Positions 681-22,617 of a stretch of DNA of 64,000 nt are shown in pieces. Positions within the stretch are counted from its first letter, which is position 1. Every line of letters begins with the position of its first letter. This stretch comes from Vitis vinifera (Eukaryota > Streptophyta > Magnoliopsida > Vitales > Vitaceae): positions 1,563,001 to 1,627,000 of the forward strand of contig NC_081818.1 in assembly GCF_030704535.1 (NCBI RefSeq). Reading direction: 5' to 3'. Below the pieces are notes generated by a model. The model saw only the letters and a list, made by a program, of their open reading frames with translations, did not search any database and was not told where the DNA came from. A program made the translations under genes and the position numbers.

Positions 681-1003
681 CAACAATGAAGCATCAAATC
701 GCTTTTTAGGAGATGCAATGAAGAGAAATAATACCTAGGAAATGAGCCAAATACCCAAAGTATCTTCAAGCAAATGCCCAAAGCACCTTCACACACAAAC
801 TCTAGTACATCCATAAGTAAATTTCTATGCATCAATATATGAATAATGAGAATTACATTTGCTGAAAATCCCACATTCGAAATCGGTATCTTAAATGACA
901 GTGATAACGAATTGACGATAAATATATAAATGATAATTTACATAATTGCATTATGCACCTTACCCCTATTCTTGATGGTGGTCGAAGGAATAAGGTAATA
1001 TAT
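681..1003 (-). pseudogene. SWEET remnant downstream of DUF538 copy 1
   Basis: Minus-strand translation around 780-875 gives pieces resembling SWEET exon 4 (VGFSANVILIIHI, then LMDVLEFVCEGAL), matching [13 protein letters not shown] and [13 protein letters not shown] of the intact gene at 24341-26369. At 957-1003 the bases match the 3' end of SWEET exon 3 (the YAPxRxR region plus splice donor). About 690-780 resembles SWEET intron 5 near 29930. Order and strand are those of a SWEET gene, but exons 1, 2 and most of 3 are replaced by the DUF538 gene upstream. Seen directly: the similarity; inferred: common origin. Confidence 0.6.
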
Positions 1004-1175
1004 GACTTTCCTTTTCTTAATTTTTCCATCATCAATGGGAATACACATTTGTACATGCATCCCAAAGATCAATTAAAAACAACAATAATTCATCATAATA
1101 AGCACAACCCACATCAATCAATCCAACAAACAACTCAAAGGAATTCAAACAAGCCACTTATCTCAATTCAATCCC

Positions 1176-1676
1176 CTACCAAGACAAAGCAAAAGGGTTT
1201 ATTCCAAGCTTCCTTGCTTGCCTACGACCGCAGTTCAGGCCACACCCACATTGAGGAGAGTCCTCAAAGTAGTCAACAGGAAACCCCGTCTTCCCAACCC
1301 CCACAGAGAAATCAAGATTATCGCCGCTCCTGATGATCTCTTTTATGTCCATCCACATGAAAACCACCTTTACACTGATACCTTCCAAACTAGATAGCTT
1401 GCCATTTGATATGTAACCTTTGATAGCGGGCTTGTACTTCAATTGGTATGAGGCTTGACGGAAGCTGCAGCTATCATTGAAGTAGGCTGAGAATTGACCT
1501 GTGGTGGCGTTGAGATCATAGCTTCTGACCCCTTTGGGAAGAAGGCCAACTGGGAAGTCGTAGCCTTCAAGAACCTCATATGCTGTTGGGGAGGAGTTGC
1601 CTGGAATTGCCTTGATCAGAATTAGGCAGAAAGTTGCTGCTAGAGAAATCAGTCTTTGGGCTGTGGCTGAACCCAT
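1176..1676 (-). CDS. DUF538 family secreted protein, copy 1
   Basis: Single-exon gene for a 166-residue protein. Residues 1 to about 28 form a signal peptide (hydrophobic core ISLAATFCLILI); the DUF538 domain fills the rest, with the landmarks TAYEVL, YDFPVGLLPKGV, TTGQFSAYF, YISNGKLSSLEGISVK and a Cys-rich end CGCGLNCGRRQARKL. The start fits the other four copies, which begin MGSA/MDSA followed by a TQRL-like stretch. The family is plant-specific; its chemistry is not settled (a BPI-like lipid-binding fold has been proposed, and Arabidopsis SVB affects trichomes). A probable apoplastic or endomembrane protein. First and most divergent of a minus-strand array of five; a conserved TATA-like CTATAAAA lies about 95 bp upstream. 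Confidence 0.9.
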   Translation of the reverse strand: MGSATAQRLISLAATFCLILIKAIPGNSSPTAYEVLEGYDFPVGLLPKGVRSYDLNATTGQFSAYFNDSCSFRQASYQLKYKPAIKGYISNGKLSSLEGISVKVVFMWMDIKEIIRSGDNLDFSVGVGKTGFPVDYFEDSPQCGCGLNCGRRQARKLGINPFALSW

Positions 1677-1767
1677 CTCTCTCTAGATCTGTCTCTTCTT
1701 TCTTTTTGTTTTATCTAACTGCCCAATTGAAAGGTAGTTGATGAAGCCAGAAGTTTCGGCTGGTTCT

Positions 1768-1775
1768 TTTATAGT
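1768..1775 (-). promoter_or_regulatory. Conserved TATA-like box of the DUF538 array
   Basis: CTATAAAA on the minus strand, inside a block (TAATCAAGAAACTATAAAAG) kept in all copies; the counterparts near 10682-10689, 14155-14162, 19647-19654 and 22550-22557 read CTATAAGA. It lies 70-100 bp upstream of each ATG, a plausible core-promoter distance. Function inferred from position and conservation. Confidence 0.55.
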
Positions 1776-1789
1776 TTCTTGATTAAGGG

Positions 1790-4040
1790 CTGAAGGGGAA
1801 GCCAAACCAATCATTTCAAAAATCAATCTTGAGGTCATGAGAGTTTAGTTGAACGTGTGTAATAACTTTCTGCATAAGTTAAAGCACAAAAAAAGGTTTA
1901 CGGAAGGGAAGGGGTTTATGTAAGAAGCAACACTGTCTTCAATATTAAGCTTTTTCGTACTTTAGAAACTTATGAAAAAAAATCATTCAAATGCATCCAA
2001 ATTTTTTTATTAAGCTTAAAACAAACTTTTCAATCCTAAGCTGCTTACAAAGGTATCTGGAATTGAGGTGGGATGAATGAGTGAGCTAGGGTAAGGGTGA
2101 CAAAGTTCAATAGAATTCACAAACAAAACTCAAATCTAACGTGTCTTTAGTAGGTTTTGGTTAAATATAATCGGGTTTGATACAAATTTATGTCGACTTG
2201 CATAATTCGTTTAATAAATATGTAGTCCTAATTTAAGCTATTTGACTCATTTTAAATTTGTTTTTTTTCTTTTTAAGTAAATAGGTCAATTAAGCCACAA
2301 ATATATTTAGTTGAGATATTAATCATATAAACTTATATAAAACCTAATTCAATCTGATTATTAAATGAATTAAATAGATTACATAACATTTTATATGTTT
2401 AATAATTAGATAGTATTTTGATTTATATTTTTTTACACTATTGTTATCCATATCGGGTTTGAATTGTTTTATATACTAGAATACTTAGACTTTAACATAA
2501 TATGAACAAGACTCATCAACATAAATAGCCATTCAAGACTAAGATTAGGATTTATCTAGTTTATCTCTAGATAAAATTTCTAGTGTAATTCAACAACAAT
2601 AATAACTTACATTAAAAACACTGTAAATGATATTGACCTCCTACATTAATGATTCATTAATTTATCATCATCATTATTATTGTTATTATTATTATTATTA
2701 TTATTATTAAAAAATATGTTTCTAAATAATTTAAATTATATATCATATTTGATTTGATCATGGATTACACCTGTCAACAATCAAAATAACAAAACTAAAT
2801 TAAATCAGCAAACTTATAAAAATTAAATTAATAGACATTATGAATAATCTTTTGTAAGTTTCATTCCTTTTTTTTCCCCTCATACGAGACACATGTGTTG
2901 CTATCCATTATAAGTCCTCTGAAATATTTTGGGATGATCTAGATTTGAATTTGATTGTTGATGCATGTAATCCATGTTGGTTTGAAGACATGTTGGTTTT
3001 TATCTTTATGTTCATGCTTGAAGTATTAAAAATATTTATTTCATTTATTAAAAAAAATCTAAAAAGTAATAATGAGATGGTCTTTGCGCTGATAAAAAAG
3101 AATTATTATTATATTTATTTTATTACACCTAAAAAATAAGGCATTTAAAAAACTAATAATTTTACAAAATACAATAATTTAATATATTTTTGAATGTCTC
3201 ACAATACCAAAATTTATTATAACAATAAAAAGTCTAAAAATTAGTGATGTATTACAAAAAATAATGATTATATTTGTTTTTATTTTATAAGATATTTAAA
3301 ACTAATATCTTGATAGAACCTAAAACAAGTTGAAAGATATATAACTATAAAAAATTTATTACATGCTTCTCAATATCTAAAAATATCACGTTTTTAATTT
3401 GAATGACAAAATTAATTAGAAGCATTGAATGAAACTCTGAAAATGATATTTTTAATTCAAAGGTTTTTTTCATTTAAACTAAATTATCTTAAAAAGTGAC
3501 ATAAATTAAAACATAAGTATCACATTGGGAAAAGCTTAAAGTTTGAAATAATATTACTTAATAAAACAAACAAAAGCCTTGGATAAATTATTTATGTGCT
3601 TATATGGCACGACTAATATTCATTGTGCAATGAGGTTCATTTTTTTGTTGGAATATAATCCATAGACACATATGGGTATGGTCCAACACTACTCAATAAT
3701 CCATCATGACACTTTTCATTAATTATGAAAGAAGTGAAAACAAAATGTAATAAGAATTCTTAAATTCGATACTCCTAATAATTATTAAAATGAATTCTAC
3801 CAAATGATAATTTTGATGTTCTGCAGATAGAATTAGTGATGTTTTTATACATATATTGATATTAGAGGGCTCACTAAAACATCTCAAGTTTCATATGATT
3901 GATGTTACTAGACTTTTTGTTCATATCCCTTGGTGATTTTTGCTCACATCTCTTTAAGGCTATAGACAAGAGTCTATGTGCAAGGTGGGGCTTTGTATAT
4001 ATTAAATGGAATAGTGTGCTGGATTGAGTACTCCGAAATG
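1790..4040. other. Upstream flank of DUF538 copy 1, AT-rich
   Basis: No gene seen. Bases 1790-2000 match the single-copy ancestor of the repeat amplified at 22591-23760 (caatcatttcaaaaatcaat, then gtaagaagcaacactgtctt). Bases 3130-3800 are a diverged copy of 10861-11450. The rest is AT-rich and unassigned. Confidence 0.5.
2671..2709. repeat. (ATT)n microsatellite
   Basis: About a dozen ATT units with one interruption. A long AAT-type tract at 10809-10860 sits at a roughly similar place upstream of DUF538 copy 2. Confidence 0.85.
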
Positions 4041-7000
4041 GTTTACAATTACATCTTACCTGTAATGCATGGTTAGTTCCATGGAAATGTCTTCCACGTC
4101 CACCATGGGAGACATCTCAAGAACCACCAGTTTTGTTCTTGCCTCCTTTCCCACCCAATCTCATCCAAATTGGACGATAACAATTTTCTGGTTTAGAGAA
4201 AATATACAGATATTGACAAAGTTAAGAGGACACAAGCTGCAGCGTTTTCTCTTCGATTCCTCAGTCTTGGCCTTAAAATTTATTTCGCAAGATGATGAAA
4301 CCTAACATCGGATAAACCCTATGTTTCAAAACTGGGAACAACAAGATCAACTCATCATGTCTTGGATTCTTGCATCCATATTTGATGCTCTTCTTACACG
4401 CATGGTGAACTGTGATACTTTGGCCCAAGTGTGGAAGACTCTTTATCTGTATTTTGCTATCCAAGTATAAGCCAAAGTAACCCAATTCAAGAGTCAACTG
4501 CAAAACACTAGGAAATGAGACCTACCTATAAATTACTACCTCCTCAAGATCAGAAATATTGTTGATCTTCTTGCCCTAATTGGCCATAACCTTTCTATCA
4601 AAGACCATATAGATGCAATCTTTGAAGGCCTTCCTCAAGAATATGAAACTTTTATCATCCTCTATAAGCCCAAGGATTGATCCGTATACCATTGAAGAAA
4701 TTGAAGCACTCCTTGCTCAAGAAAGTCGTATTAAGAAAAGCATCAAGAGCTCAAAATTTTCCAACCCTAGCTTAGTTAACTTAGCCACAACCAATGGTTC
4801 TTCACACTTTAACAAAAGATTTGGAAACAGTAACTCAAGTATGAATTAGCCTGGTCATTTTAGAGAAAATCAGAATGCATTTTAGTACTCAACAAGATCT
4901 CACAAATTATCTGGATATGGAAAGCAAAACTTTCGTGGAAACTTCTCTCAACGAGGAAAAGGATGACATTGCAGTTCTTTGGGAGGAAACAACAAACATC
5001 GGTCAACTTTGTAGGGGAATGGGTCATGTGGTCATGCAGTGCTGCTACTCATTTGATTAATCCTTCACTAGACCCTCACAACTTTAAGGGTATCGTCCTC
5101 AAGGGAACATAGCTCACCTTCCACGACAGTTCCCTAAACAATTCTCCCCAAGAATCTCTTCTACATTCGCACAGCCTGCAACACTAGAAATCTCACAAGA
5201 CACTAACTGGTACCCAGACTCCGGAGCAATGAATCACCTTACGTCTGACCTTAATAATCTCATGACCAAAACACAATTCTTTGCATCAGATCAAGTCTTC
5301 GTGGGAAATGGTCAGGGTCTCTCTATTCACTACATTGGACATGTATCATTTTCATCTCCATTTGTTCCTTCCAAGTCACTTGCCTTAAAACAACTTCTAC
5401 ATATTCCATAAATCACCAAATAAAACCTTCTTAGTGTTTCAAAATTCGCTAATGATAATCATGTGTTTTTTGAATTTCATCCCACCTCTTTTTTTTGTCA
5501 AGGATCTTGCCACCAAAGCAGTCCTCTTGTAAGGCCAACTTAAAGAAGGGTTATATGTATTTGATAATACACAAACAAACCTCACTTCAAACCTCAATCC
5601 ATCTTGGAGTCAACTCCCTCCAAACTTTAAGGCTCAGAGAATTCCAGCCTAACATGTTTCACATATGCACCTACCTCCTCCAAGACGTTCACTGCAACTG
5701 CTACATAACCATCTTGTTCATCTTTTGATCTGTGGCATAATAGACTTGGTCACCCATCTGCACAAATAGTATCTCTTATACTAAAAAAATGTAACCTTGC
5801 TCATCTTAATAAAAAGTCTTATACTGTTTGTTTTGCCTACTGCATGGGTAAAATTCAAAAGTTTCCATTTAATTCCCCTTTCAACCTCTTCATACATAAA
5901 ACCCTTAGAGTTGATACATTCAGATTTATGGATATCGGTATTATATTCATTTTGTTGATGCCTACTCTTGATTTACCTAGATTTACATGCTTAAACAAAA
6001 ATCTGAAGCATTTCAAGCCTTTCTTAACTTCAAATCACAAGCGAAACTTCAACTAGATCATAGAATCAAAGTTGTGCAAATTGATTGGGGCAGCGAGCAT
6101 TGTACCTTGACCCATTATGTCCTCTCCAATGGTAGTATACATAGAACCTCATGTCCCTACATTCATGAACAAAACGAAATAGTTGAGCATAAACACATAC
6201 GCATCGTTGAACATGGCCTTACCCTTCTAGCTCAAGCCTCTTTACCTCTCAAGTACTAAAATGAAGCCTTTCGCACCTATGCATTTCTCACCAATAAATT
6301 GCCCACCCCAATTCTAAAAAATAAATCCCCAATAGTGATATTCTTCCACACCGCACCATCTTGCTCTCAGCTCAAGGTGTTTGGCTGTACTTGTTGGCAT
6401 CTTAGATCTAAGCAACAAAAGTAATAACATTTTTTTTAAAAAAAAAAATTTGATCTTTTAGGGTTAAATAACTAACCTTTAAGTTTGAATGTTCTCAAAC
6501 CTTAAAATCCAAATGTTGAAGACGACCTTGAAGTTGTTGGAAGTCTCGTAAACCCACGATCTTTGGCTCAATGACTCAACTTTGTTCTTGGAACACTTCC
6601 AATGGGGAGGAAAAGATGGTGAAAACTATAACTCTCTTTCTCTTTGGATGGTGGAAGAACAAAAGTTATGGAAACCCTAGCCCCTATGAGGTATTTATAT
6701 AAGTGACTTGAAGCCACATGGACTTGCGTCACTTAATTTAACCCAAAATGAGGTCTAATTGATTAATTAACCCAATATAGCTTACTAATTAATCAATTAG
6801 CCCAATCCAGATACTTTGTTCACTTACCCCTATGCAACCTTATGTAATTACCAAAATACCCTTATGCACAAAAGTGAACCTAGAGCTAATCTGACCCTCA
6901 TAATCCATGTCATGAACAAGATATATGAGTTCAAAGTAGGGACCACTAGGACCCATAGGAGTATTGGCTTCCTTAGAATCTAATTCTAAAGTTGATTCAA

Positions 7001-9260
7001 TATCCCACTATAGAGAATCAACTGAACTCCAATCCTATGTAAATAACAACAAGATACTAAGTGCTCGGATCTATGACCTGCTATACATTGTGTTCAGTCT
7101 CCCCATGAACTGATGTCCATAATCTAATAAGGTGAAAGTTATCAATCTTTCAAGACTACCTCTACTATCCTTGAGTTACAAATCCTCCTATTGTATATTT
7201 AATTGACATGTCTTAACTCTCAAAGAGTTTATGCCAAGTTTCATATAAGGAACTACTATGACCATAGTTTCCATGAACACTTCTCTTTAAGATCACCCAA
7301 GAGGACACACTGTCTCAATCCCATGAGATATCATAGTGCCTCTATTGAGAATACCTATTGCTACCGATTTCCATTAATAGTGACTCAATCCATAAGGAAT
7401 ATATGATAAGCTTACAATTTCACCCGTAGGTTAAAGTCACTACTAACTTTAGCACAAACTCAATATTCTCTCAAGGTTGAGAGATAACACAATGAAGTAG
7501 CTTGGTGAGGTCATGACTACTTGATAGCTTTAAGTCATGACTCACCGTAAGTTATGTCTAATGTGTAACCATACACACTAGTGCACTCGCCATGGAAAAC
7601 TCATCCCATTAACCAAGACAAACCATCCCTCCAATTAGGAGGTGATGTACTACAACCTCTAATAGGTTGCCTAGACCCATGAACTGATTGTGAACAAGTC
7701 ATCTATTTGCAAGGAATGCATGACTTAGATCTTCTATGCAACTCCTAATGCACCTAAGTCACGTACAATGCAAAAAATGCAAACAAGAATGCTAATAAAG
7801 TATAATACATGGAATAAGGATAGATAAAAATGAAATTAGAACATCATTAAATGAATAATGAATTCTAAATTTATTACATCATGTTATGTTTTTAAGGGTT
7901 TTTCTTAACAGTACCTACTACCCTAATCTCAGGCCTTATAACAAGAACAAACTTTAATACCACTTCATCCCTTGCACATTTCTTAGCTATAGTCTCAACC
8001 ACAAAGGTTACAAATGTCTTAGCCCTGATGGTTGTACCTCAACAAATATAAAGTTCAGTTGATTGAAAGCCCATTGACTACAAATGGGTGTTCAAGGACA
8101 AGGAAAATCTTGATGACACCTTTAGTTTTGTTGTAAAAGCAACTACAATACAAATTGTTCTCACCATTACCTTATGTAAGGATCAAAAGATTCGACAACT
8201 TGATGTCAATAATGGTTTTCTCAATGGAAACCTTCAAGAAGAAGTTTTCATGGATCAACCAAATGGATTTGTTGATCCTCTAGCCCCAGATTTTGTGTGC
8301 AAACTGAACAAGTCCCTTTATGGTCTCAAACAAACCCCTAGATCTTCGTTTGAGAAGCTCCGCCAAGTCATTGTTGATCTTGGTTTTACGTCAACCAAAT
8401 CTTATCAATCACTCTTTGTTAATGTTACTCCACAATGCTCTACCTAAATCCTAGTTTATGTGAATGACATTTTACTAATAGGTAGTAGTGAGAACCTCAT
8501 CCAACAAGTGGTCACTTAACTTAATCACAAATTTGCTCTCAAGGATTTTGGAGTTGTTGATTACTTTCTTAGCATCCAAGCAAAGTCTACCTTTGTAAGG
8601 TTACACTGATCTCAGACTAAGTACACAGTTGACCTTCTTCACATGACCAATATGCTTCATGCCAAACCTATTCCCACACTAATGGTTTCCAACCAACAAT
8701 TAATTGCCTCTGGTAGTGATCCCATCTGCAACACTCAACTCTACAGAAGTACTATTAGAGACCTCTAATATGTCACAATTACACGTCCAAAGATTACCTA
8801 TATAGTGTGAACCGTGTGTGCTAATTTATGCAAGCCCCTCTTGTTGTTCATTGGAAGGCTGTTAAGAGAATCCTTTGCTACTTAGCCTGCACTTTCCACC
8901 ATGGACTCTATCTCAAACGCAGCTCCACCTCACATCTCAATTTAATAAGATTTTGTGATGCTGATTAGACATCTAACATGGATGATTAACACTCCACCTC
9001 TAACTATCGTTTCTTTCCTTAGCCCCAACCTTGTTTCTTGGCAATCCTGCAAAATAGCATACCATCTCCAAGTGGTCCACCGAAGCTAAGTATCCTTGCA
9101 GATACTCCAAGTGGTGAATATGTTTCAATATATCCTTGCAGACGTATTCACCAAAGCTATTCCCAGCTCTCAGTTCGTTATCAAGTGAGACAAACTCAAT
9201 GTAGCACAAGCACAGTATATATTTTTCACCATTACTATTATCTGCCTAATAAATTGTATT
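4041..9260 (+). mobile_element. Copia-type LTR retrotransposon, broken fossil
   Basis: Plus-strand Copia remnants in canonical order: gag about 4069-4850; an aspartic-protease motif region (DSGAMNHL) near 5220; gag-pre-integrase (LGHPS) near 5745; integrase core end (SCPYIHEQNEIVEH) near 6150-6260; reverse transcriptase (LDVNNGFLNGNLQEEVF, KSLYGLKQ) 8190-8345; RNase H region about 8900-9010. A solo LTR of another family interrupts it at 6392-7910. Coding parts are heavily degraded, with more than ten breaks, so it is old and inactive. No LTR pair or target-site duplication of its own was recognised, so both outer limits are approximate. Confidence 0.85.
6392..7910 (-). mobile_element. Nested solo LTR (about 1.52 kb)
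   Basis: A non-coding block splitting the Copia integrase from its reverse transcriptase. It begins TGTTGG and ends CTTAACA on the plus strand, so the termini are TGTT...AACA as in LTRs. Flanking pentamers gtact (6387-6391) and gtacc (7911-7915) agree at four of five bases, a decayed target-site duplication. On the minus strand a TATA-like CTTATATAAATACC lies near 6693-6708. No internal coding region accompanies it, so it is most simply a solo LTR left by recombination; family not identified. It is younger than its Copia host. Confidence 0.75.
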
Positions 9261-9339
9261 AATCACAACGTGGGCAATTTCTAGCCTAAAAAAGGTTAAT
9301 TATACGAAGCATGAAAGTGCTTTCTATGAGGTGCCATGA

Positions 9340-9908
9340 AGAAAAATAATGCCTATGAAAGGAGCCCAAGGCCCAAATCATCTTCAAGCAGTTAACCTTA
9401 ATAATGAATTCAATATTTTTCAATCAGAAAAAAGAAAAATAAACTTGGAGTTGGAGACTGCAGGTTAAGCATCAAGCACACTTCGAATACAAGATATAGA
9501 GAAAGAAAGGCCTCAAGATATTCGTAGCAAGATAAGCCAATATTCTCTAGGCTATATATGAGAGTTGTTTTTCAATTTTCACTCAAAACCATCCATATAG
9601 AGAACTATTTTCTTATGTTGAAATTTTATATAAGAGAGGTTCTTAGTTGCCATGGCCACAAGACCAGAGTGAACCGTATTTGTGTAGAGGTCTGCATGCA
9701 CAAACCCTAGTACATGATCCATATGTAAACTTCAATGATTCATCAAACGGCTAATGAGAAATACTGTTGATGGAATCCCACATTCGAAATCGATATCATA
9801 GATGACAATGACAATGAATCGATGAAAAATGTATGTGATATATACATATATAATTACATAACTTACATTCTGTACCTTATATATATGAGGAATAAGGTAA
9901 CATATAAC
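9340..9908 (-). pseudogene. SWEET remnant downstream of DUF538 copy 2
   Basis: Bases 9650-9800 match SWEET exon 4 and its donor side (gttgccatggccacaag; gcacaaaccctagtacat; ggaatcccacattcgaaatc). Bases 9866-9908 match the exon 3 end (atatgaggaataaggtaaca). The part 9340-9480 resembles SWEET intron 5 around 29925-30030. The frame is lost. Collinear with, and downstream of, the DUF538 gene at 10104-10595. Confidence 0.6.
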
Positions 9909-10103: not shown

Positions 10104-10595
10104 TTAATTTGCTCTAAGCTTCCTTACTTGCCTAGGACTGCAATTTATGCCACACCCACATTGAGGAGGCTCCTCAAAGTAGTCAACAGGAAACCTGGTG
10201 GACAGAATCCACACATAGAAATCAAGACCATCTCCATTCCTGATGATCTCTGATATGTCTATCCACAAAAAGAACAACTTCACACTGACGCCTTCCAGGC
10301 TAGATAGCATGCCATTTGATAAGTAACCTTTGATGGTGGGCTCGTACTTCAATTGGTAGAAGCCTCCAGAGAAGCTGCAACTATGACTGAAATAGGCTGA
10401 AAATTGACCTGTTGTGTCGTTGAAATCATAGCCTCTGACCCCATAGGGAAGAAGGCCAATTGGGAAGTTGTAGGCCTCAAGAACGTCATATGCTGATGGG
10501 GTGTTATTGAAGGAGTTGGCTGGAGGTGTATGTATGAGGATTAGGCAGAAAGTTGCTGCTAGAGAAATCAATCTTTGGGTTGCAGCTGAATCCAT
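10104..10595 (-). CDS. DUF538 family secreted protein, copy 2
   Basis: Single exon, 163 residues from the Met of MDSAATQRL. An in-frame Met 22 codons upstream (10661) was rejected because it precedes a charged KQKRRRRN stretch that would spoil the signal peptide and because all paralogues start at the MDSA/MGSA Met. Signal peptide about 1-28; DUF538 landmarks SAYDVL, YNFPIGLLPYGV, TTGQFSAYF, YLSNGMLSSLEGVSVK; end CGCGINCSPRQVRKL. Residues FYVWILSTRFPVDYF replace the SVGVGKxxFPxxYF of copies 1 and 3, a local divergence with no visible break. The upstream TATA-like box CTATAAGA is conserved. Confidence 0.88.
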   Translation of the reverse strand: MDSAATQRLISLAATFCLILIHTPPANSFNNTPSAYDVLEAYNFPIGLLPYGVRGYDFNDTTGQFSAYFSHSCSFSGGFYQLKYEPTIKGYLSNGMLSSLEGVSVKLFFLWIDISEIIRNGDGLDFYVWILSTRFPVDYFEEPPQCGCGINCSPRQVRKLRAN

Positions 10596-13090: not shown

Positions 13091-13094
13091 CTGC

Positions 13095-13403
13095 TATATT
13101 AAACTTTTGTCATTACTTGAGCCGCACATGTTAAGAATTAATACAGAAGCTACCATAACCACAAGAAGTGATGAAGCATATTTGACTAAACTTAGGCCTG
13201 CACACACAAACCCTAGCTCATATATACGAAAATCTTCATGCATAATCAAACCAATAATGAGAAACACTGTTAATTGCTGGAAATCCCACATTATCATTAA
13301 TGACAATGATAATGAATTGATGAAAAATATGTGATATATACACTGTTACATTCTGCACCCTTATTCTTGAAGGTGCATATATGGGGAATAAGGTAATGTA
13401 TAA
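13095..13403 (-). pseudogene. SWEET remnant downstream of DUF538 copy 3
   Basis: The clearest remnant. The minus strand at 13130-13300 reads with the SWEET exon 4 register (LGFVCAGLSLVKYASSLLVV, compare LGFVCAGLSIVMYGSPLVVV in the gene at 32957-34584). Bases 13356-13403 match the exon 3 3' end (cccttattcttgaaggtgca). Exons 5 and 6 were not found below it. Confidence 0.75.
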
Positions 13404-13548
13404 CTTTGGCTTTCCTTTTTCATCACCAACCGTAAATTAGAAATAATAATCATCAAAATAACCACAACCCACATCGATCAATCCAGAAAACAACTCAAAG
13501 AAATTCAAGGACACCACTCATCTCAATTCAATTCCCGGCCCCTACTAA

Positions 13549-14058
13549 TTAAGGAGAAACAGAAGGATTTGTAAGGAGCTTCCTTGCTTGCCTACGACCG
13601 CAGTTCATGCCACACCCACATTGAGGAGACTCCTCAAAGTACTCAATAGGGAACCAGGCTTTGCCAACCCCCACAGAGAAATCAATATCGTTGCCCCGCC
13701 GGAGGATCTCTACAATGTTCATCCACACATGGAAGAACTTCACACTGACACCTTCCAAGCTATCTAGCTTGCCGTTTGATATGTTACCTTTGATAGTGGA
13801 CAGGTATTTCAATTGGTATGCGCCTTCAGAGAAGCTGCAGGTATCATTGAGATAGGCTACGAATTTTCCCGTGGTGGAGTTGAGTTCATAACCTAGGACC
13901 CCTTCTGGAAGTAGGCCTACTGGGAAGTTGTAGTCCTGAAGAACCTCGTATGCAGTAGGGTTTTCATTGGCGGAGGTGACTGGAGGTGAATGTATCAAGA
14001 TTAGGCAGAGGGTTGCTGCTAGAGAAATCAATAATCTTTGGGTTGTGGCTGAATCCAT
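13549..14058 (-). CDS. DUF538 family secreted protein, copy 3
   Basis: Single exon, 169 residues, intact. Signal peptide about 1-29 (LLISLAATLCLILIHSPP); domain landmarks TAYEVL, YNFPVGLLPEGV, STTGKFVAYL, NISNGKLDSLEGVSVK, then SVGVGKAWFPIEYFE and CGCGMNCGRRQARKL. Best match in the array to the presumed ancestral form, since it keeps both the SVGVG block and the full Cys/Arg tail. Possible N-glycosylation sites are NSTT and NDTC. The TATA-like box lies near 14155-14162. Expected to be secreted; molecular role unknown. Confidence 0.9.
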   Translation of the reverse strand: MDSATTQRLLISLAATLCLILIHSPPVTSANENPTAYEVLQDYNFPVGLLPEGVLGYELNSTTGKFVAYLNDTCSFSEGAYQLKYLSTIKGNISNGKLDSLEGVSVKFFHVWMNIVEILRRGNDIDFSVGVGKAWFPIEYFEESPQCGCGMNCGRRQARKLLTNPSVSP

Positions 14059-14179
14059 TGATCTCTCTTTCTTTCTGTTTTTTCTTCTTCTTTGTTTTAT
14101 CTAACTGCTGCCAATGGAAATGAAGATGGTTCAAACCAGAAGCTTGGCTGGTCCTCTTATAGCTTTTCGATTAAGGCTG

Positions 14180-15850
14180 AAGTGGAAGCCGAAACAATAA
14201 TTTCAAAGAGCAATCCTAGGTAATGAGAAATAAATTTTATAATAAATTAAAAAAGGACTTAAATAAGAAGCGATATTATCCTATCTTCTATATACGTTAA
14301 ATATTTTTCTTAAATTAGAAACTCTTCTACGAAAAGTACTCGAACACATCCAAAATGATTCATTAAACTTAAAATGATAACATTTTGGCTCAACCTTGCA
14401 TAGACTAGTTCATCATTGAGGTGGTTGCCTAAGGCCCCTCTAAGTTCTTTGAGCTTGGATTAGTAAGGAATAGAGACAATATTACATTACAAAAAAAAAA
14501 AAAAAAAAAAGGGCCAAAACAAGCCAAGAGTTGACATCCCACTGTTGTATGTATATGGTTAAAATTATGTGGGCTTTCGATTAATGTGATTATAATGAAG
14601 TTCTCGAAAATACATTTTTCCTAATGCGTATATGATCTTACAATAGTAGAGTATGATTTTAATCAATTCATCGATTGAAAGAGGTATACATGAAAGTATT
14701 TGTCTCATGAAGGAACCCTAGTGACTTGTTAATTAATTTTTTTTCATTATCATCATTACATTTTCTCAATTTTAAAGCTAGTTTTTCATTTAGAAATTAA
14801 GTTCTCATCTTAATCTAATATTTGAAATGATAATTTATCCAATTGTAATTGGAATTATATGTAGGTATCATCCATCTTCAAGTAGACTCAATTATTAATA
14901 AACATTATTGGAATGAAGACCTCTGTTAATCTCTAAGTATGGTTTGATCATTTAGACATTATTTTCTCATGCAGGGTCTGTTATTGTATGTTTTTGATCA
15001 AATTTCAGACCTTTAATGAAGTTCTTATCTCAATAGCTTAGTTCTCTCTTACACACTATATATATTCAATGCATCAATGAGTGAGGTCTTCATCAACTCA
15101 AAGTCTTGTTTGTATTTCTTCAACTGGCCATTATGGAAAATGATTTTAATTCTGAAATTTTCTCTACTAAATTCAATGTAAGTACTCACCATTATCAATT
15201 CTATATTTTGTAATTCCTCCTTCACATGGCATGACGATGGATTACAAATATCAACAATCAAACAAAACCAAATGATCATAATATATGCTCAACACATTGT
15301 TTCAATCACAATTCACTTTGAGATCACTCTTGAGTGACCCATCTAGCTAGCACAAAGGCCTTTTAAAACTATATTGTTCTTTCTTTTGGATTACTCCACC
15401 TATATGATCACCATTGAAATAATTTTCATTAAAAAAAACTTAGAAGAAAAGAAAGGACTCATATATGAAAATATTGTTAATTTATGTGATACTCAATTTT
15501 TAGTTTTATTTATTTGGGAGCGAAGCTGAGAGGGTTAGAATCACTTCCCGACATTTAGACAATTACAAAAATTAGGTGTTTAACAAAATTTCAAAAATCA
15601 CTTTTAAAGTTTTAAAGAATCATTCAAGTGAATCTTGAACTAGTATTTGATAAATAAATGTTTGCTCTAAAAATCACCTAATTGTTATGGGGAGGGGCAT
15701 ATTGGGCTTTGCAGGGATGGATCTGCCTGAGGAGGTATGAAGTAGTCTGGGATTTGTCTAGTTTCGGATGGGCTCACAATGGGCTTTGAGCAATAGTTTT
15801 GGGCTTGGAGTTGGTTGCCTGAGCCCATAAGTACTTATTTTGCATTCTTC
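14180..15850. other. Flank shared by DUF538 copy 3 and SWEET 3' ends
   Basis: No gene. Bases 14200-14350 are the single-copy form of the repeat amplified at 22591-23760. Bases 14389-14570 match 23884-24060 (ctcaaccttgcatagactag), and 15690-15845 match 24080-24200, so this spacer is duplicated between the end of one SWEET copy and the next DUF538 promoter. It contains a poly-A run near 14490. Confidence 0.55.
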
Positions 15851-15851
15851 T

Positions 15852-18170
15852 TCATTCAATGTTAAACCTATATTCTTCACTGTTTTCATGGATCAGAAGC
15901 TTGTGCTGCCATTCATCTGCCAACTCATCTGAAAGATTTTGGGATGCCTTGGATTTCCAGTATATAGCATAGAGCACAATCTGAGCTATTCCAAGAATGA
16001 ATCCAATCCCATTTGGTACCTATAATTTAGAACACCATGCCCAAAAAAATTGTTTCAATCATAACTATATTGTGTGCTTCATTAAAATTCTTTCTAGGAA
16101 GTGAAATCAAGACCAAAGGACAAGGAAGGGATGTTGATCCATCATCCTTTATGTATGTTTAACCTTATTAGCAAATTGAAGTACTTTCAATTAATAACTT
16201 TCAAAAAAATCTTAAACCTTGCTTGGAAATTGTTCTTAAAAACAGTTTTTTATTTAAAAAGCAGAAAACGGTTTTCAAACTTACAAAACAAGTCTAATAT
16301 TTTTTTTATAGAAACCAATTCTTTAAGAATTTGTTACGAAAATATGTTAATTTTAAAATAAATTTGAGATGTTTTTAGTTTTTTTTTTGTAGCATTTTAA
16401 GTAATAACTAAAAATCAATGTTTTTAATTAGAAGCGAAGGGGTCATTGAACCGAAAAATTAAATTATTGGTTTAAGGTTCATCGATCAGACAGATTATTA
16501 AACTGCAATTAAACTAATGATGTCATAAATATATAATTTATATATTATTAAAATTAAAAATAAAAATAATAAATTCTACAGATTGATAACTTCTTTTTTA
16601 TTTGTTGAGCTTTTTCACAAATTTTTTTATCTGTAAAAGTCACCGTATGTCATAAAATTATTTGAAAATCAAAAAATTATTTTTAAACCAGAAAATCACT
16701 TTCAAATATGAAATTTAGATTAATTAAAATCAGAATTTTAATTTAAAATTAGAAAATTTAAAATTTATTTTTAAATTATAAACTTATTTTAAAATCATGA
16801 ACTTACACAATGTTTTCATAAATTTATTTAAAATCACAATGTTTTCACTTTTCAAAAGTATGATTCATCAATTTAAATTAAAATCACAAATTTTAAAAAT
16901 CAAAAAGTTAAAACAAATAGAAATGTAAAATAAATTATAATGGAAATAAAGTAGATAAATTACAAAGAAAATGGGAGGGGAGACTTACAGTTACAACCGG
17001 GAATGAGACTACTAATGGCATCCGCGGTGTCCCCATCAGCCAGCGACGTCGATGCCGATGTGCTCTAGAGCTTGAAGGAGGCGCATTGGACTAGAGCACG
17101 AAAGGCGCTGGGCGGCTAGGGGAGGGCAATGGCGCATAAGGGTTGGAGTGGGAAGGGGGGAAGGAGATAAGGTAAAACGTCATTTGTTTTGAATCTATTC
17201 GATTCATGAAGAACCATTTGATTTAGCCAATTCATCAATCCGATTGCCAGCTCCAGTGCTTCACGGTTGGCTCAAAGGGTGACCAGTTCAAAAGGTCAAA
17301 TCGAATCGGAATGGTGATCAGCCAATAATCAAACCGATCAAAAACAGTTCAATCCGATTTGGTTTTCAAAACACAGCTAAAAATATGAAGAATGTTTTGG
17401 GAATTCTTACATTATATATAAATATATAATAATTTCATAGAAAATGAATTGAGAAAAATATTTTCATATTAAAGTTTTCAAATAGAATTTTGCTCTTAAA
17501 ATAAACAAAAATTATGTTTAAGAATTGTTCACAATTTTTTTTTTATTTCAAAATTGTTTTTAAAAACTTTCCTAAACATGTCCATTTAATTACTCCTGAT
17601 CAACCCTAGGCAGATAAAATTAATTAGGGTTTCGAGCAATAGATTAGCTAGTGGTACCATTTGTAGAACATGGAAGGGTTGAATTAAAAAAAAAAAAAAA
17701 AAGACCCTTAAAAATGTCATTTTCACGATATTAAACAATAGATTATATAGTAGTACCATTGTAGCATATGGAAGGGTTAAATGCCAAAGACCCTTAAAAC
17801 ATGTCATTTTCACAACAACTTTACATGGGTTTTTTCCCTTTAATGGACGAGGGTGAGAGCTTACTCCAACGAAGAAGTCTTTCACAAGGATAGCTCTCAC
17901 TAAAGGAGTCTTTCACAAGGATGACATAAAAAGTCTAAATTATTCCATTTAACGGAAGGGAAAATAACATAAGCAAAGACATATACTTTATGCTTTTTGT
18001 CATCACCACCTTTTTCTACAAATTGACATTTTGATGCCATTTTTAAGTTTTGATATTAAATACATCTACTTTTCAATAAGAGAAAGAGAGAGTTCAACCT
18101 TAAAAATAAAAAATAAAACTTCTAGTTAACATTTTTGCAAAGGGTGAAGCATACATTAATATATTTAGGA
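15852..18170 (-). pseudogene. SWEET pseudogene, exons 6, 5 and part of 4
   Basis: Exon 6 at 15852-16019 is open ([16 protein letters not shown], then AIYWKSKASQNLSDEL) but the stop used by the paralogue at 24341 (GAAGAGTAG) here reads GAATATAGG, extending the tail to the next TGA. Exon 5 at about 17866-18010 is disrupted: a tctttcacaaggat segment occurs twice, separated by an inserted stretch. Only a piece of exon 4 survives at 18130-18170 (aagcatacattaatatattt). Exons 1-3 are absent apart from the exon 3 tail near 18721-18763; DUF538 copy 4 occupies their place. Intron 5 carries a hAT-like insertion. Not expected to make a transporter. Confidence 0.85.
16416..17376. mobile_element. Non-autonomous hAT-like DNA transposon
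   Basis: A 961-bp insertion in the intron of the SWEET pseudogene, flanked by a perfect 8-bp target duplication CTAAAAAT (16408-16415 and 17377-17384). The homologous intron of the intact SWEET gene carries the uninterrupted single site (caactaaaaatttgaaggat near 24815). Ends CAATGTTTTTAA and, inverted, CTGTGTTTTGAA form an imperfect terminal repeat. Near the ends are GAACCGAAAAATT and ATCAAACCGATC words common in plant hAT MITEs. A GC-rich core (about 16980-17170) contrasts with AT-rich arms. No transposase frame. Confidence 0.8.
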
Positions 18171-18268
18171 TTGCATACAATCCCAAACACATGAATTTGA
18201 ATTAGATTATATGATAAACTTGTTATTTTAATTTTAGTTAGTAGAGGCTTATCCCCTCAAACATCATG

Positions 18269-18530
18269 GCTATATTTGGTTCTCAAAAGATTTGAGGGAA
18301 AATACTGAGGAAAAATAATAGAACAGAAAAGTAGGAAGAAATAAAATATGAAATAAAATTAAAAAAAAAAGATTAAAGTCTATAAATTATTTTTATCTAC
18401 TTAGTTAAACTCATTTATAATATTTTAACTAATTTTAATTATATTTTTTTATAGTGAAACCAAACATGAGAAAATCACTTTTTTATTATTTTTTTCTTTC
18501 ATTAATATTTTCCAAGAATCAAACATAGTC
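18269..18530. mobile_element. MITE-like fold-back element
   Basis: Begins gctatatttggttctcaaaa and ends tccaagaatcaaacatagtc, inverted versions of one another; the interior is AT-rich. The same family recurs at 29084-29381 and 32384-32688, and a copy near 21178-21430 belongs to the segmental duplication. Superfamily not determined because no clean target duplication was found. Confidence 0.55.
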
Positions 18531-19086
18531 TATTTATATTACCTTCCACTGCCTTAGACTACTAAAATACTTGTTGTTGAAAGTATATATAGTGAAACCA
18601 AACATGAAAAAGTCACTTTCTTTATTATTTTTTTATTTTCTTAGTATTTTTCAAAAACCAAACATAGCCTATTTGTATCACCTTCCATTGACTCTTTTTT
18701 TTTTGGACTACTGAAATACTTGTTCTTGAATGTACATATATGAGGAAGAAAGTAATGTAAAACATCGATTTAAAGCCCATTTGACTGTGAATTTTAGGAA
18801 ACGCTTTTAACATTTTTAACACTTGAAAAATTTTATCATTTAAGTGTTAGAAAGATTCGAAACGTTTCTTAGAATCAATGGCAAAAGCACTCTTAATTTC
18901 TTTTTTCATCATCAATGGGAAAGATCAACTGTAAATTAAAAACAGTAATTCATTAAAATAAGCACAACCCACATAAATCAATCCAGAAAACGAGTCAGAA
19001 ATTAAAGTACACAACTAAATTCAATAGTCTACTAGTTAAGGAGAAACAGAAGGATTTATCGTGTTCCTGCTTGCTTGCTTGCTTGC

Positions 19087-19563
19087 CTAGGAAGTAGGAA
19101 AGCAGTTCATGCCACACACACATTGAGGAGATTCCTCAAAGTCCTTAATATGGAACCTGTCTCTTGCCACCCCCGCAGAGAAATGAATATGATTGTCACG
19201 CCGGAGGATCTCAACAATTTTTCTCCACTTATGAAAGAACATCACACTAACACCTTCCAAGCTAGATATCTTGCCGTTTGATATGTAACCTTTGATAGTG
19301 GGCTCGTATTTCAAACGGTATCCTCCTTCATAGACGCTGCAGCTATCATTGAGATAGGCTGAGAATTCACCTGTTCTGTGGTTGAGCTTGTAGCCTGTCA
19401 CCACCTCTTCTGGAAGAAGGCCAACTGGGAAGTTGTAGTCCTCAAGAACCTCGTATGCTGTTGGGATTTCAGTGAAAGAGTTGACTAGAGTCAAATGTAT
19501 CAGGATTAGGGAGAGGGTTGCTGCTAGAGAAATCGATAATCTTTGGCTTGTGGCTGAATCCAT
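19087..19563 (-). CDS. DUF538 family secreted protein, copy 4
   Basis: Single exon, 158 residues. Signal peptide about 1-30 (LSISLAATLSLILIHLTL). DUF538 landmarks TAYEVL, YNFPVGLLPEEV, HRTGEFSAYL, YISNGKISSLEGVSVM. The C-terminus ends QCVCGMNCFPTS: one Cys of the CGCG motif is Val and the GRRQARKL tail of copies 1 and 3 is replaced by FPTS and a stop, shortening the protein by about ten residues. HSAGVARDRF replaces DFSVGVGKxxF. It may be a functional variant or an early pseudogene; the frame is open throughout. The upstream region is cut at TGTC (19711) and joined to SWEET exon 5 repeats, so only about 150 bp of native promoter remains. Confidence 0.85.
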   Translation of the reverse strand: MDSATSQRLSISLAATLSLILIHLTLVNSFTEIPTAYEVLEDYNFPVGLLPEEVVTGYKLNHRTGEFSAYLNDSCSVYEGGYRLKYEPTIKGYISNGKISSLEGVSVMFFHKWRKIVEILRRDNHIHFSAGVARDRFHIKDFEESPQCVCGMNCFPTS

Positions 19564-19579
19564 CGATCTCCCTTTCGGT

Positions 19580-19587
19580 TTCTTCTT

Positions 19588-19617
<30 letters not shown>
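19580..19617. repeat. (TTC)n microsatellite in the 5' leader of DUF538 copy 4
   Basis: About 12-13 TTC units just upstream of the ATG. The same site in copy 5 (about 22499-22520) has about seven units: the most obvious length difference between the two recent duplicates. Confidence 0.85.
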
Positions 19618-19618
<1 letters not shown>

Positions 19619-19710
19619 TTTGAAATTAACCAAGTTTGGGGGGTTCTCTTATAGCTTTTCGATTAAGGCTGAAGTGGAAGCCGAAACAATAAATTCAAAG
19701 AGCAATCTAC

Positions 19711-21060
19711 TGTCATCACCACCTTCTTGACATTTTGATGCCATATTTAAGCTTTGATATTAAATACATCTACTTTTCAATAAGAGAAAGATAGAGCTCA
19801 ACCTTAAAAACTAAAATTAAAAATAAATATATAAATAAAAACTTCTAATTAATATTTTTGCAAAGGATGAAGCATACATTAATATATTTAGGATTGCATA
19901 AGGATTCAATGCCAAAGACCCTTAAAACATGTCATTTTCACAACAACTTTACATAGGTTTTTTTTCCTTTAATGGACGAGGGTGAGAGCTTACTCCAACG
20001 AAGAAGTCTTTCACAAGGATGACATAAAAAGTCCAAATCGCTCCATTTAAGGGAAGGGAAAATAACATAAGCAAATGCATATACTTCATGCTTTTTGTCA
20101 TCACCACCTTCTTCTGCAAATTGACATTTTGATGCCATATTTAAGCTTTGATATTAAATACATCTACTTTTCAATAAGAGAAATATAGAGCTCAACCTTA
20201 AAAAATAAAAATAAAAATAAATAAATAAATAAATAAAAACTTCTAATTGACATTTTTGCAAAGGGTGAAGCATACATTAATATATTTAGGATTGCATAAG
20301 GGTTCAATGCTAAAGACCCTTAAAACATGTCATTTTCACAACAACTTTACATGGGTTTTTTTTCCTTTAATGGACGAGGGTGAGAGCTTACTCCAACGAA
20401 GAAGTCTTTCACAAGGATGGCATAAAAAGTCCAAATCGCTCCATTTAAGGGAAGGGAAAATAACATAAGCAAATGCATATACTTCATGCTTTTTGTCATC
20501 ACCACCTTCTTCTGCAAATTGACATTTTGATGCCATATTTAAGCTTTGATATTAAATACATCTACTTTTCAATAAGAGAAAGATAGAGCTCAACCTTAAA
20601 AAATAAAAATAAAAATAAATAAATAAATAAAAACTTCTAATTAACATTTTTGCAAAGGGTGAAGCATACATTAATATATTTAGGATTGCATAAGGGTTCA
20701 ATGCCAAAGACCCTTAAAACATGTCATTTTCACAACAACTTTACATGGGTTTTTTTCCTTTAATGGACGAGGGTGAGAGCTTACTCCACCGAAGAAGTCT
20801 TTCACAAGGATGGCATAAAAAGTCCAAATCGCTCCATTTAAGGGAAGGGAAAATAACATAAGCAAATGCATATACTTCATGCTTTTTGTCATCACCACCT
20901 TCTTCTGCAAATTGACATTTTGATGCCATATTTAAGCTTTGATATTAAATACATCTACTTTTCAATAAGAGAAAGATAGAGCTCAACCTTAAAAAATAAA
21001 AATAAAAATAAATAAATAAATAAAAACTTCTAATTAACATTTTTGCAAAGGGTGAAGCAT
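19711..21060 (-). repeat. Tandem array of orphan SWEET exon 5 units
   Basis: Three consecutive units of about 390-400 bp plus a partial fourth. Unit starts (tgtcatcaccacctt) are at 19711, 20096, about 20494 and 20887. Each unit contains a whole 120-bp SWEET exon 5 on the minus strand ([13 protein letters not shown], then [19 protein letters not shown]), with the splice acceptor ..TTTGCAG and donor GTAAGC, and a 40-bp scrap of exon 4 (gaagcatacattaatatatt). The third unit has FFGG where the others have FFVG. No partner exons lie between units, so they cannot encode a transporter alone. The units descend from the pseudogene at 15852-18170. Confidence 0.85.
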
Positions 21061-22617
21061 ACTTTAATATATTTAGGATTCCATACAATCCCTAACACAT
21101 TAATTTGAATTAGATTATATAATAAACTTGTTATTTTAATTTTAGTTAGTAGAGGTTTATCTCCTCAAACATCATGGCTATATTTGGTTCCTGAAATATT
21201 TGAGGGAAAATGCAAAGGAAAAAAGTGGAACAAAAAAGTATGAAGAAATAAAATATGAAATAAAATAAAAAATAGATTAAAGTGTATAAATTATTTTTAT
21301 CTGCTTATTTAAACTCATTTATCATCTTCTAACTAATTCTAACTATATTTTTCATAGTGAAACCAAACATAAGAAAATCATTTTTCTTATTATTATTTTT
21401 TTTTTAATATTTTCCAAGAATCAAACACAGTCTATTTATATTACCTTTCACTACCTTTTTTTTTTAACGAGACTACTGAAATACTTGTTGTTGAAGGTGT
21501 ATATAGTGAAACCAAGCATGAAAAAGTCACTTTCCTTATTTATTTTTTCTTTCCTTAGTATTTTTCGAGAACCAAATATAATCTATTTGTATCACTTTCC
21601 TTTGACTTTTTTTTTTTAGACCACTGAAATACTTGTTCTTGAATGTACATATATGAGGAAGAAAGTAATGTAAAACATCAGTGTAAAGCCCATTTGACAG
21701 TGATTTTTAGGAAACGTTTTTAACATTTTTAACACTTGAAAAATTTTATCATTTAAGTGTTAAAAAGATTTGAAACGTTTTTTTAGAATCAATGGCAAAA
21801 GCACTCTTAATTTCTTTTTTTCATCATCAATGGGAAAGATCAAGTACTGTAAATTAAAAACAGTAATTCATTAAAATAAGCACAACCCACATAAATCAAT
21901 CCAGAAAACGAGTCAGAAATTAAAGTACACGACTAAATTCAATAGTCTACTAGTTAAGGAGAAACAGAAGGATTTATCGTGATCCTGCTTGCTTGCTTGC
22001 TTGCCTAGGAAGTAGGAAAGCAGTTCATGGAACACACACATTGAGGAGATTCCTCAAAGTCCTTAATATGGAACCTGTCTCTTGCCACCCCCGCGGAGAA
22101 ATGAATATGATTGTCACGCCGGAGGATCTCAACAATTTTTCTCCACTTATGAAAGAACATCACACTAACACCTTCCAAGCTAGATATCTTGCCGTTTGAT
22201 ATGTAACCTTTGATAGTGGGCTCGTATTTCAAACGGTATCCTCCTTCATAGACGCTGCAACTATCATTGAGATAGGCTGAGAATTCACCTGTTCTGTGGT
22301 TGAGCTTGTAGCCTGTCACCACCTCTTCTGGAAGAAGGCCAACTGGGAAGTTGTAGTCCTCAAGAACCTCGTATGCTGTTGGGATTTCAGTGAAAGAGTT
22401 GACTAGAGTCAAATGTATCAGGATTAGGGAGAGGGTTGCTGCTAGAGAAATCGATAATCTTTGGCTTGTGGCTGAATCCATCGATCTCCCTTTCAGTTTC
22501 TTCTTCTTCTTCTTCTTCTTATTTGAAATTAACCAAGTTTGGGGGGTTCTCTTATAGCTTTTCGATTAAGGCTGAAGTGGAAGCCGAAACAATAAATTCA
22601 AAGAGCAATCTACTGTC
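20680..22617. repeat. Segmental duplication, copy B
   Basis: Partner of 17745-19714. It carries DUF538 copy 5 and at its upstream end continues past TGTC (22614-22617) into the native flank TAATTGAATG, which copy A has lost. Copy B is therefore the more complete at this end. Confidence 0.85.
22005..22481 (-). CDS. DUF538 family secreted protein, copy 5
   Basis: Single exon, 158 residues, identical to copy 4 except for one residue near the C-terminus (CVCSMNC here, CVCGMNC there). The same signal peptide, domain landmarks and short FPTS tail apply. The (TTC)n tract in the leader is shorter, and the upstream flank is the native one, greatly lengthened by a tandem repeat (22591-23760). Its SWEET exon 3 tail remnant lies at 21634-21676. 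Because the two coding regions are nearly identical, expression of each would need copy-specific UTR reads. Confidence 0.85.
   Translation of the reverse strand: MDSATSQRLSISLAATLSLILIHLTLVNSFTEIPTAYEVLEDYNFPVGLLPEEVVTGYKLNHRTGEFSAYLNDSCSVYEGGYRLKYEPTIKGYISNGKISSLEGVSVMFFHKWRKIVEILRRDNHIHFSAGVARDRFHIKDFEESPQCVCSMNCFPTS

Follow-up and report, generated by a model that had tools for sequence, protein, structure and literature searches.

A junction inside SWEET exon 3 as the probable scar of a tandem duplication in a grapevine DUF538 array

On contig C14 of Vitis vinifera, the 3' part of a SWEET gene repeatedly stands behind DUF538 genes. The junction between the two, inside SWEET exon 3, occurs in eight places, five in the window (the whole stretch of 64,000 nucleotides analysed here) and three below it, and is borderline in three of the eight (U4, U5 and J9). 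Judged from the arrangement of the sequence, this junction is very probably a scar, later recopied, that was left when a SWEET gene and its DUF538 neighbour were duplicated in tandem. The window covers only the upper end of a larger tandem array, in which 13 DUF538 loci occupy about 73 kb (C14:1585481-1512296) as head-to-tail copies, all on the minus strand. D1 to D5 (named U5 to U1 below) lie inside the window and the remaining loci below it. A preliminary description of this DNA counted five copies of a composite unit, because the window edge cut the array; the totals are 13 DUF538 loci and eight exon-3 junctions.

The five DUF538 genes in the window (Table 1) match PF04398 across the whole domain (E 1.2e-34 to 7.4e-30), all above the curated cut-off. 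Each is a single open frame, and frames are open in 12 of the 13 array loci. By eye, the window proteins have a hydrophobic stretch at their start. Among U1 to U5, dN/dS is 0.48-0.76 (NG86) or 0.53-0.78 (YN00) in the nine pairs other than U4-U5; for that pair, which has very few changes, NG86 gave 0.28 and YN00 gave no value. These ratios are consistent with weak purifying selection, of which they are not a strong test.

A full-length SWEET gene, SWEET A, is located upstream of the array, at its proximal end. It has two PF03083 (MtN3_slv) stretches (E 2.6e-48), as a SWEET transporter gene should. Its frame is closed by a stop codon of its own, and the DUF538 start lies a further 1.86 kb on. 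Behind every one of the window's five DUF538 genes, and on the strand of that gene, come SWEET remnants with the exons in the correct order, as had been described; the exon 4/5 pieces of R5 are also tandemly repeated. SWEET sequence begins, in the sense orientation, 145-331 nt after the stop in the five open DUF538 genes. At the level of the DNA, a SWEET-DUF538 fusion protein was considered and set aside; the DUF538 frames close ahead of the SWEET pieces, and stop codons separate the two, though a read-through transcript over both is conceivable. In R2, a gap of about 6.3 kb, in which ORF fragments look retrotransposon-like by eye, splits the exon 6 piece from the first part; the stretch of this appearance, at about 4.0-8.8 kb, showed no flanking LTRs when 2900-9330 was compared with itself.

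Table 1. Features of the window that carry DUF538 or SWEET sequence (all positions are those of the window).
Feature	Position	Strand	Description
DUF538 U5 (D1)	22005..22481	minus	158 aa, open frame
DUF538 U4 (D2)	19087..19563	minus	158 aa; CDS 99.2% identical to U5
DUF538 U3 (D3)	13549..14058	minus	169 aa, open frame
DUF538 U2 (D4)	10104..10595	minus	163 aa, open frame
DUF538 U1 (D5)	1176..1676	minus	166 aa, open frame
Class I (exon-3) junction in U1	1003..1020	minus	D13-flank similarity ends at 1021; SWEET exon 3 similarity starts at 1002 (nt 170)
SWEET A	24341..26369	minus	intact 6-exon gene, 237 aa, GT/AG splice sites
SWEET A exons	26369-26336, 26213-26177, 26077-25867, 25748-25587, 25405-25286, 24490-24341	minus	
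SWEET remnant R5	19711..21676	minus	exon 3 tail ~21674-21632 (borderline), exon 4 piece 21107-21045
R5 exon 5, three copies	20904-20785, 20511-20392, 20113-19994	minus	~398-bp tandem repeats
SWEET remnant R4	15749..18763	minus	exon 3 tail 18761-18719 (borderline), exon 4 18198-18137, exon 5 18015-17898, intron 5, exon 6 16019-15871, SWEET 3' flank 15846-15749
SWEET remnant R3	13159..13404	minus	exon 3 tail, intron 3, exon 4
SWEET remnant R2, first part	9224..9908	minus	exon 3 tail, exon 4 9799-9652, intron 5 9435-9224
R2 exon 6 piece	2881..2946	minus	blastn E 2.6e-11, SWEET B only
SWEET remnant R1	668..1002	minus	exon 3 tail, intron 3, exon 4 892-784, intron 5 791-668
Spacer upstream of U3	14383..14584	minus	71% homologous to SWEET A-U5 spacer 23882-24073

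The exon-3 tails were examined by aligning each DUF538 3' flank locally to exon 3 (211 nt) and intron 3 of the SWEET genes A, B and C. The alignments fall where the preliminary description had placed the tails. Against A, B and C in turn, they start at exon-3 nt 170, 170 and 170 for U1, 209, 167 and 167 for U2, 167 in all three for U3, 123, 158 and 168 for U4, and 123, 168 and 133 for U5. Among 400 dinucleotide shuffles, the numbers that did as well or better (same order) were 2, 0 and 0 for U1, none for U2 and U3, 0, 1 and 2 for U4, and 0, 3 and 0 for U5. Taken alone, the U4 and U5 tails are borderline, but in both remnants pieces of exons 4 and 5 come next. Past the breakpoint, the eight junction loci resemble SWEET (only 0-8 of 300 random stretches are as good) and not the flank that the distal loci D11 and D13 have in common (39-192 of 300). 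The earlier proposal of one breakpoint in exon 3 thus stands clearly for U1 to U3 (nt ~167-170) and for the three copies below the window, and is borderline for U4 and U5. The multiplication of the chimeric block is supported as well, and a genome-wide query with the junction returned six matches, all inside the DUF538 array.

A second common junction, from DUF538 into SWEET exon 6, marks D6 to D10. These loci score 42-91 against exon 6 and the 3' UTR, and 0-4 of 300 random stretches score as well. Two kinds of junction are what one would expect if the DUF538 3' flank had been joined to SWEET several times independently, at separate breakpoints. In addition, the exon-3 piece of U4 and U5 may be longer than that of U1 to U3 by about 35-45 nt: against SWEET A, 7 of 4000 random 41-mers match as well as the extra piece of U5 and 82 of 4000 as well as that of U4, and against SWEET C the counts are 45 and 355 of 4000. 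Against SWEET B the extra piece has no support (2388 of 4000). However, U1 to U3 and the three copies below the window agree on both sides of the exon-3 break within a few nucleotides of the alignment, and D6 to D9 have the exon-6 break in common, and we consider separate joins improbable.

What stands upstream of the DUF538 genes is informative as well. SWEET exon 6 precedes three of the five window genes: that of SWEET A lies before U5, that of R4 before U3 and the R2 piece before U1. Exon 5/4 repeats of SWEET are located upstream of U4, and no SWEET exon was found upstream of U2. The region upstream of U3 is collinear with the SWEET A-U5 interval (15749-15846 with 24107-24204, 88%; 15839-16242 with 24310-24707, 81%). 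The repeat unit therefore looks like a SWEET 3' part, a spacer and a DUF538 gene. A search of the array for SWEET exon 1, exon 2 and the 5' part of exon 3 gave only two chance-level matches, of 21 nt (E 0.04) and 27 nt (E 0.07).

At the distal end of the array, the pattern is reversed. D11 and D13 have open frames with no SWEET sequence behind them, and they resemble each other over about 400 bp, through and beyond the position of the exon-3 breakpoint; the part beyond the breakpoint alone scores 118, which 2 of 1000 random stretches (these may include the two loci themselves) reached. D12, between them, has neither this flank nor SWEET behind it; it fits neither pattern, and the distal end of the array thus does not reduce to one clean copy. 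The sequence upstream of D11 yielded no SWEET piece. At C14:1514445-1514744, upstream of D12, there are pieces resembling SWEET intron 5, which may be a dispersed repeat or the remains of a SWEET gene and are left out of the argument; beyond these, the interval between D11 and D12 gave a single weak match, to intron 5 (1528660-1528592, E 0.003). The nearest DUF538 relative outside the array is located at C7:3707110-3707616. In a tree that includes it, D13 is the first to branch (92/96), with the first fork below the program's 'starred' level and the C7 gene on a long branch. A tblastn search with SWEET A around the C7 gene (C7:3683001-3731000) gave nothing at E 1 or better. The same stretch has no informative match to the D11/D13 flank (best E 0.005, away from the gene), so that C7 cannot serve as an outgroup for the flank.

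The distal loci also bear on whether the downstream SWEET sequence has been kept for a use, either as 3' UTR of DUF538 transcripts or by giving rise to small RNAs that target SWEET genes. Its sense orientation shortly behind five open DUF538 genes and its recurrence in eight places would suit such a role. However, the decay of the pieces differs from copy to copy, and the frames of D11 and D13 are open although no SWEET piece follows them; from the sequence, we regard a retained function as quite unlikely. Still less credible is the insertion of a DUF538 gene, for example as a retrocopy, into a SWEET gene, followed by multiplication of the chimeric gene. The common exon-3 breakpoint and the single open frames of the DUF538 genes would both be expected, and the preliminary description had indeed spoken of a gene that 'landed in' a SWEET gene. 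That wording fails, because insertion predicts 5' SWEET exons upstream; these are missing from the array, and exon 6 is found there instead before three of the window genes. Furthermore, the D11/D13 flank is collinear through the breakpoint, so that DUF538 would have stood in the array outside a SWEET gene. The alternative wording, 'recombined with', is compatible with a tandem-duplication junction. Equally hard to credit is an assembly that has placed haplotype copies in tandem, inflating the U4/U5 pair or the whole array: the near-identical coding sequences of U4 and U5, with about 91% identity over 2 kb, might suggest it, but the other copies diverge by roughly 10-30%, more than expected for two haplotypes of one locus.

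A SWEET gene upstream, exon 6 before three of five DUF538 genes, the missing 5' exons and the D11/D13 flank together make a tandem-duplication junction the best reading. The starting point would have been a SWEET gene and a DUF538 gene placed head to tail on one strand, with the flank of D11 and D13 presumably the original one behind DUF538. A tandem duplication would then have had one end in exon 3 of SWEET, near nt 167 of its 211, and the other about 150-200 nt past the DUF538 stop, perhaps with microhomology at this first break, and would have left a full SWEET gene and DUF538, then a SWEET 3' part, DUF538 and the native DUF538 flank. Further unequal recombination inside the repeated block would have copied the unit and its scar to the eight places seen today, and a second duplication would have joined the 3' end of DUF538 to SWEET exon 6 (D6 to D10). 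SWEET A and the remnants may later have crossed over. Most DUF538 frames (12 of 13) would have stayed open, and the SWEET pieces without a 5' part would have decayed.

The SWEET pieces, by their sequence affinities, carry more than one history. Intron 5 of R2 is nearer to SWEET B (p 0.001) and that of R4 nearer to SWEET A (p 4e-7); nine of the 12 affinity tests, all uncorrected, were not significant. It is conceivable, though rather doubtful, that DUF538 copies were added by repeated crossovers between SWEET A and its downstream remnants, and not by crossovers among the DUF538 genes. The mixed R4/R5, with an exon-3 scar like that of U3 and an exon 6 and intron 5 like those of SWEET A, would be a trace of such an expansion. 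If so, a broken SWEET neighbour would have driven the amplification of another gene family.

In the literature, the only precedent found is a grapevine SWEET-SWEET-DUF538 gene model. In the portions available, PMC4499210 and PMC8195505 treat an 'extraSWEET' (Vv14G09070 / VvSWEET17b-c), and PMC4876132 a SWEET17c model (17d in the legend) with four MtN3 domains and a terminal DUF538; we infer that PMC4499210 and PMC4876132 describe one gene model. The main text of PMC4499210 has no mention of a DUF, and PMC8195505, in the part available, attributes the joining of 17b and 17c to an annotation error. VvSWEET17c is VIT_14s0060g01910, and the window is on contig C14. The order of the model (SWEET, SWEET, DUF538) is that of the window, a likeness judged by order and contig; however, the model is one predicted protein, whereas SWEET A of the window ends well before DUF538 starts. 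Tandem DUF538 genes are also known from Arabidopsis (ASD1/ASD2 and ASD3/ASD4; PMC10459309). As far as the available text goes, these resemble the window genes in tandem placement and in the hydrophobic protein start (seen by eye in the window), but they form pairs, compared with 13 loci here, and SWEET does not occur in the main text of that paper. In known duplication junctions, to the extent of the published text available, a segment likewise ends inside a gene and places part of that gene beside another. The array described here differs in that the joined SWEET part lies behind the DUF538 stop, with no fused open frame, and in that the scar was recopied to eight places and a second scar involves the same gene pair.

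In conclusion, the mechanism is already known and ordinary, but the case is unusually legible. It offers a simple origin for the published grapevine SWEET-SWEET-DUF538 gene model, and with an intact neighbour, an unrearranged flank and two layers of scars in one stretch of chromosome, it gives an unusually complete view of the birth and growth of a plant gene array.

All five DUF538 genes of the window (U1 to U5, see the table) lie below the intact gene SWEET A and on its strand, and other SWEET genes or gene parts occur at about 28-44 kb of the window. Each of the five is followed on its 3' side by SWEET pieces that keep the exon order, which confirms the observation of SWEET remnants in the preliminary description. 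A profile search detected exon 4 in every remnant (R1 to R5, numbered as the genes), exon 5 in two of them (R4, R5) and exon 6 likewise in two (R4, R2), always on the minus strand. The profile models were built from SWEET sequences of the window, and some had R1-R5 pieces as rows; the remnant pieces are also recovered by blastn with the SWEET genes alone. Among the SWEET genes themselves, 28278-30000 and 31563-33306 form a direct duplication (90.5% over the compared part, the query ending at 30000) that takes in exon 6 of the reference gene SWEET B; exon 5 lies beyond the duplication, and its two copies are identical across 120 nt.

Coordinates of the SWEET and DUF538 genes (window) and of additional junction copies (contig C14)
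Feature	Position	Strand	Description
SWEET A	26369-24341	minus	intact, six exons, GT/AG splice sites, 237 aa, two PF03083 stretches
U5	22481-22005	minus	DUF538 gene, PF04398
U4	19563-19087	minus	DUF538 gene, PF04398
U3	14058-13549	minus	DUF538 gene, PF04398
U2	10595-10104	minus	DUF538 gene, PF04398
U1	1676-1176	minus	DUF538 gene, PF04398
J7	near C14 1548.1 kb		exon-3 junction, then exon 4 and intron 5 pieces
J8	near C14 1541.9 kb		exon-3 junction, then exon 4, intron 5 and exon 6 pieces
J9	near C14 1536.9 kb		exon-3 junction, then exon 4, intron 5 and exon 6 pieces

Alignment of the 3' flanks with SWEET exon 3/intron 3 bore out the coordinates previously assigned to the exon-3 tails. In local alignments the tail starts at nt 167-170 of the 211 nt of exon 3 in U1, U3 and, against the reference genes B and C, U2; the alignment of U2 with A runs mostly through intron 3. 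The start depends on the reference in U4 (123, 158 and 168 against A, B and C) and U5 (123, 168 and 133), and these two possibly keep 35-45 nt extra of exon 3. As-good scores among 400 shuffles numbered 0-2 for U1 and U4, 0 for U2 and U3 and 0-3 for U5. The tail of U4/U5 is nearest to that of U3 (79% vs 70% to A, 47-48 sites). With a CDS identity of 99.2%, U4 and U5 are, judged by sequence, recent copies of each other. U4 has a MITE-like hairpin (18791-18875, 37-nt arms 76% complementary) between the DUF538 UTR and the exon-3 tail, an insertion that U5 shares by sequence. Between the two genes, 19711-21085 consists of tandem repeats of about 398 bp, each carrying exon 5 and part of exon 4 of SWEET.

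The array continues below the window. With C14:1490001-1563500 mapped in addition to the window (C14:1563001-1627000), there are 13 DUF538 loci, D1 (U5) to D13, from C14 1585481 down to 1512296, every one on the minus strand; in 12 of them the frame is open (158-205 aa), and D12 is broken. The DUF538 UTR and exon-3 junction occurs in three more places (J7-J9) with no DUF538 CDS directly before it. Across the assembly (495.6 Mb, 21 contigs), the junction query gave at least six matches, all on C14: U1, U2, J7-J9 and, via the UTR alone, D13. The array holds 13 of at least 27 genomic DUF538 matches; outside it, a lone C7 gene ranks next among the matches listed, and a search about 24 kb to either side of that gene gave no SWEET A match. 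With this C7 gene included, whose branch is long, the tree places the earliest split at D13 (92/96, a support below the starred level). U3 groups with U4/U5 (100/99) and D6-D10 with D12 (100/99); 4 of the 11 inner branches are open.

D11 and D13 are similar for about 400 bp 3' of the stop, across the point where the junction copies become SWEET (past it, 74% over 163 bp in blastn, E about 1e-22). Past the breakpoint, SWEET exon 3/intron 3 was matched equally well by 0-8 of 300 random stretches, which could include true copies, for the eight junction loci (weakest in J9, D1 and D2), and by 95 and 131 for D11 and D13, which show no such likeness. Against the D11/D13 flank, the junction loci gave 39-192/300, no likeness, and D11 and D13 against each other 2/300 each; D12 resembles neither (68/300 vs SWEET, 35/300 vs this flank). 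Letters like GTT.TAT at the seam are common to D11, U2 and SWEET and suggest a microhomology of 6-7 nt, the sequences being much decayed.

A second seam is present in D6-D10. In D6-D9, SWEET exon 6 and, in part, SWEET 3' UTR-like sequence come 26-53 nt after the DUF538 stop; D10 retains only the later part of this stretch. These five score 42-91 against exon 6 plus 3' UTR, with 0-4/300 random stretches equally good, as compared with 98-291/300 for six other copies. Joins within this SWEET-DUF538 pair therefore arose at least two times, each at its own point in SWEET. The exon-6 seams of D6-D10 lie within C14:1534150-1555600; in D7-D9 the seam leads into about 1.3-2 kb that these units have in common as a repeat, and then come J7-J9. 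SWEET intron 5 matches upstream of D12 (C14:1514445-1514744) and between D11 and D12 (C14:1528660-1528592) may be either SWEET remnant or dispersed repeat.

The preliminary description proposed that a DUF538 gene landed in, or recombined with, a SWEET gene once and that the chimeric block was then multiplied. The shared breakpoint and the multiplication hold; the order of parts opposes the landing. Counting SWEET A before U5, SWEET exon 6 is upstream of three of the five window genes. Before U3, exon 6 (16019-15871) and SWEET 3' flank (15846-15749) run into a spacer homologous to that between SWEET A and U5; an exon-6 piece (2946-2881) also stands before U1, and some 6.3 kb containing retrotransposon-like fragments separate it from the exon 4 and intron 5 that belong to it (9799-9224). 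The region before U4 is the exon 5/4 repeats, and no SWEET exon was detected upstream of U2. From C14:1490001 to SWEET A, exons 1 and 2 (queries from A) and the 5' part of exon 3 (A, B and C) are unmatched, except for 21 nt of exon 1 within U2 (E 0.04) and 27 nt near C14:1563155 (E 0.07). The upstream exon 6 and the unmatched 5' exons argue against a landing inside a SWEET gene and together give a unit of SWEET 3' part, spacer and DUF538, so that the DUF538-to-exon-3 join is a seam between two units.

Two of these regions have further features. The SWEET A-U5 spacer contains overlapping tandem repeats (22581-23700), with shorter matches upstream of U3. At about 4000-8800, retrotransposon-like ORF fragments, seen by eye in translations, interrupt a SWEET remnant, with no LTRs detectable around them; 6391-7898 (1.5 kb) recurs inverted at C14:1560872-1562396 (76%).

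Some remnants also differ in the SWEET gene that they most resemble, in keeping with several rounds of recombination. R4 is nearer to SWEET A (intron 5, 56 A-only vs 14 B-only sites; exon 6, 19 vs 7) and R2 intron 5 nearer to SWEET B (16 vs 41), whereas the other 9 of 12 comparisons, including R1, R2 and R3 over exon 3-exon 4, favour neither; these site tests are weak and uncorrected. Together with the U3-like exon-3 tail of U4/U5, the pattern would fit a crossover in which SWEET A recombined with a remnant of greater age, so that the old seam came to stand with SWEET 3' parts of later origin.

Among the listed papers that combine DUF538 and SWEET with tandem duplication or grapevine, none is, judged by title, on such an array. 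A reported grapevine SWEET17c model (17d in the legend) carries four MtN3 domains and ends in a DUF538 domain (PMC4876132), Vv14G09070 is called an extraSWEET (PMC4499210), VvSWEET17b and 17c are described as joined by mistake in the 12x annotation (PMC8195505), and VvSWEET17c is VIT_14s0060g01910 (PMC6523336). By its order and contig number, the window would fit the VvSWEET17b/17c locus. Chimeric structures from tandem duplications that cross gene boundaries are known (PMC5460883). The mechanism is ordinary, and the case is unusually legible.
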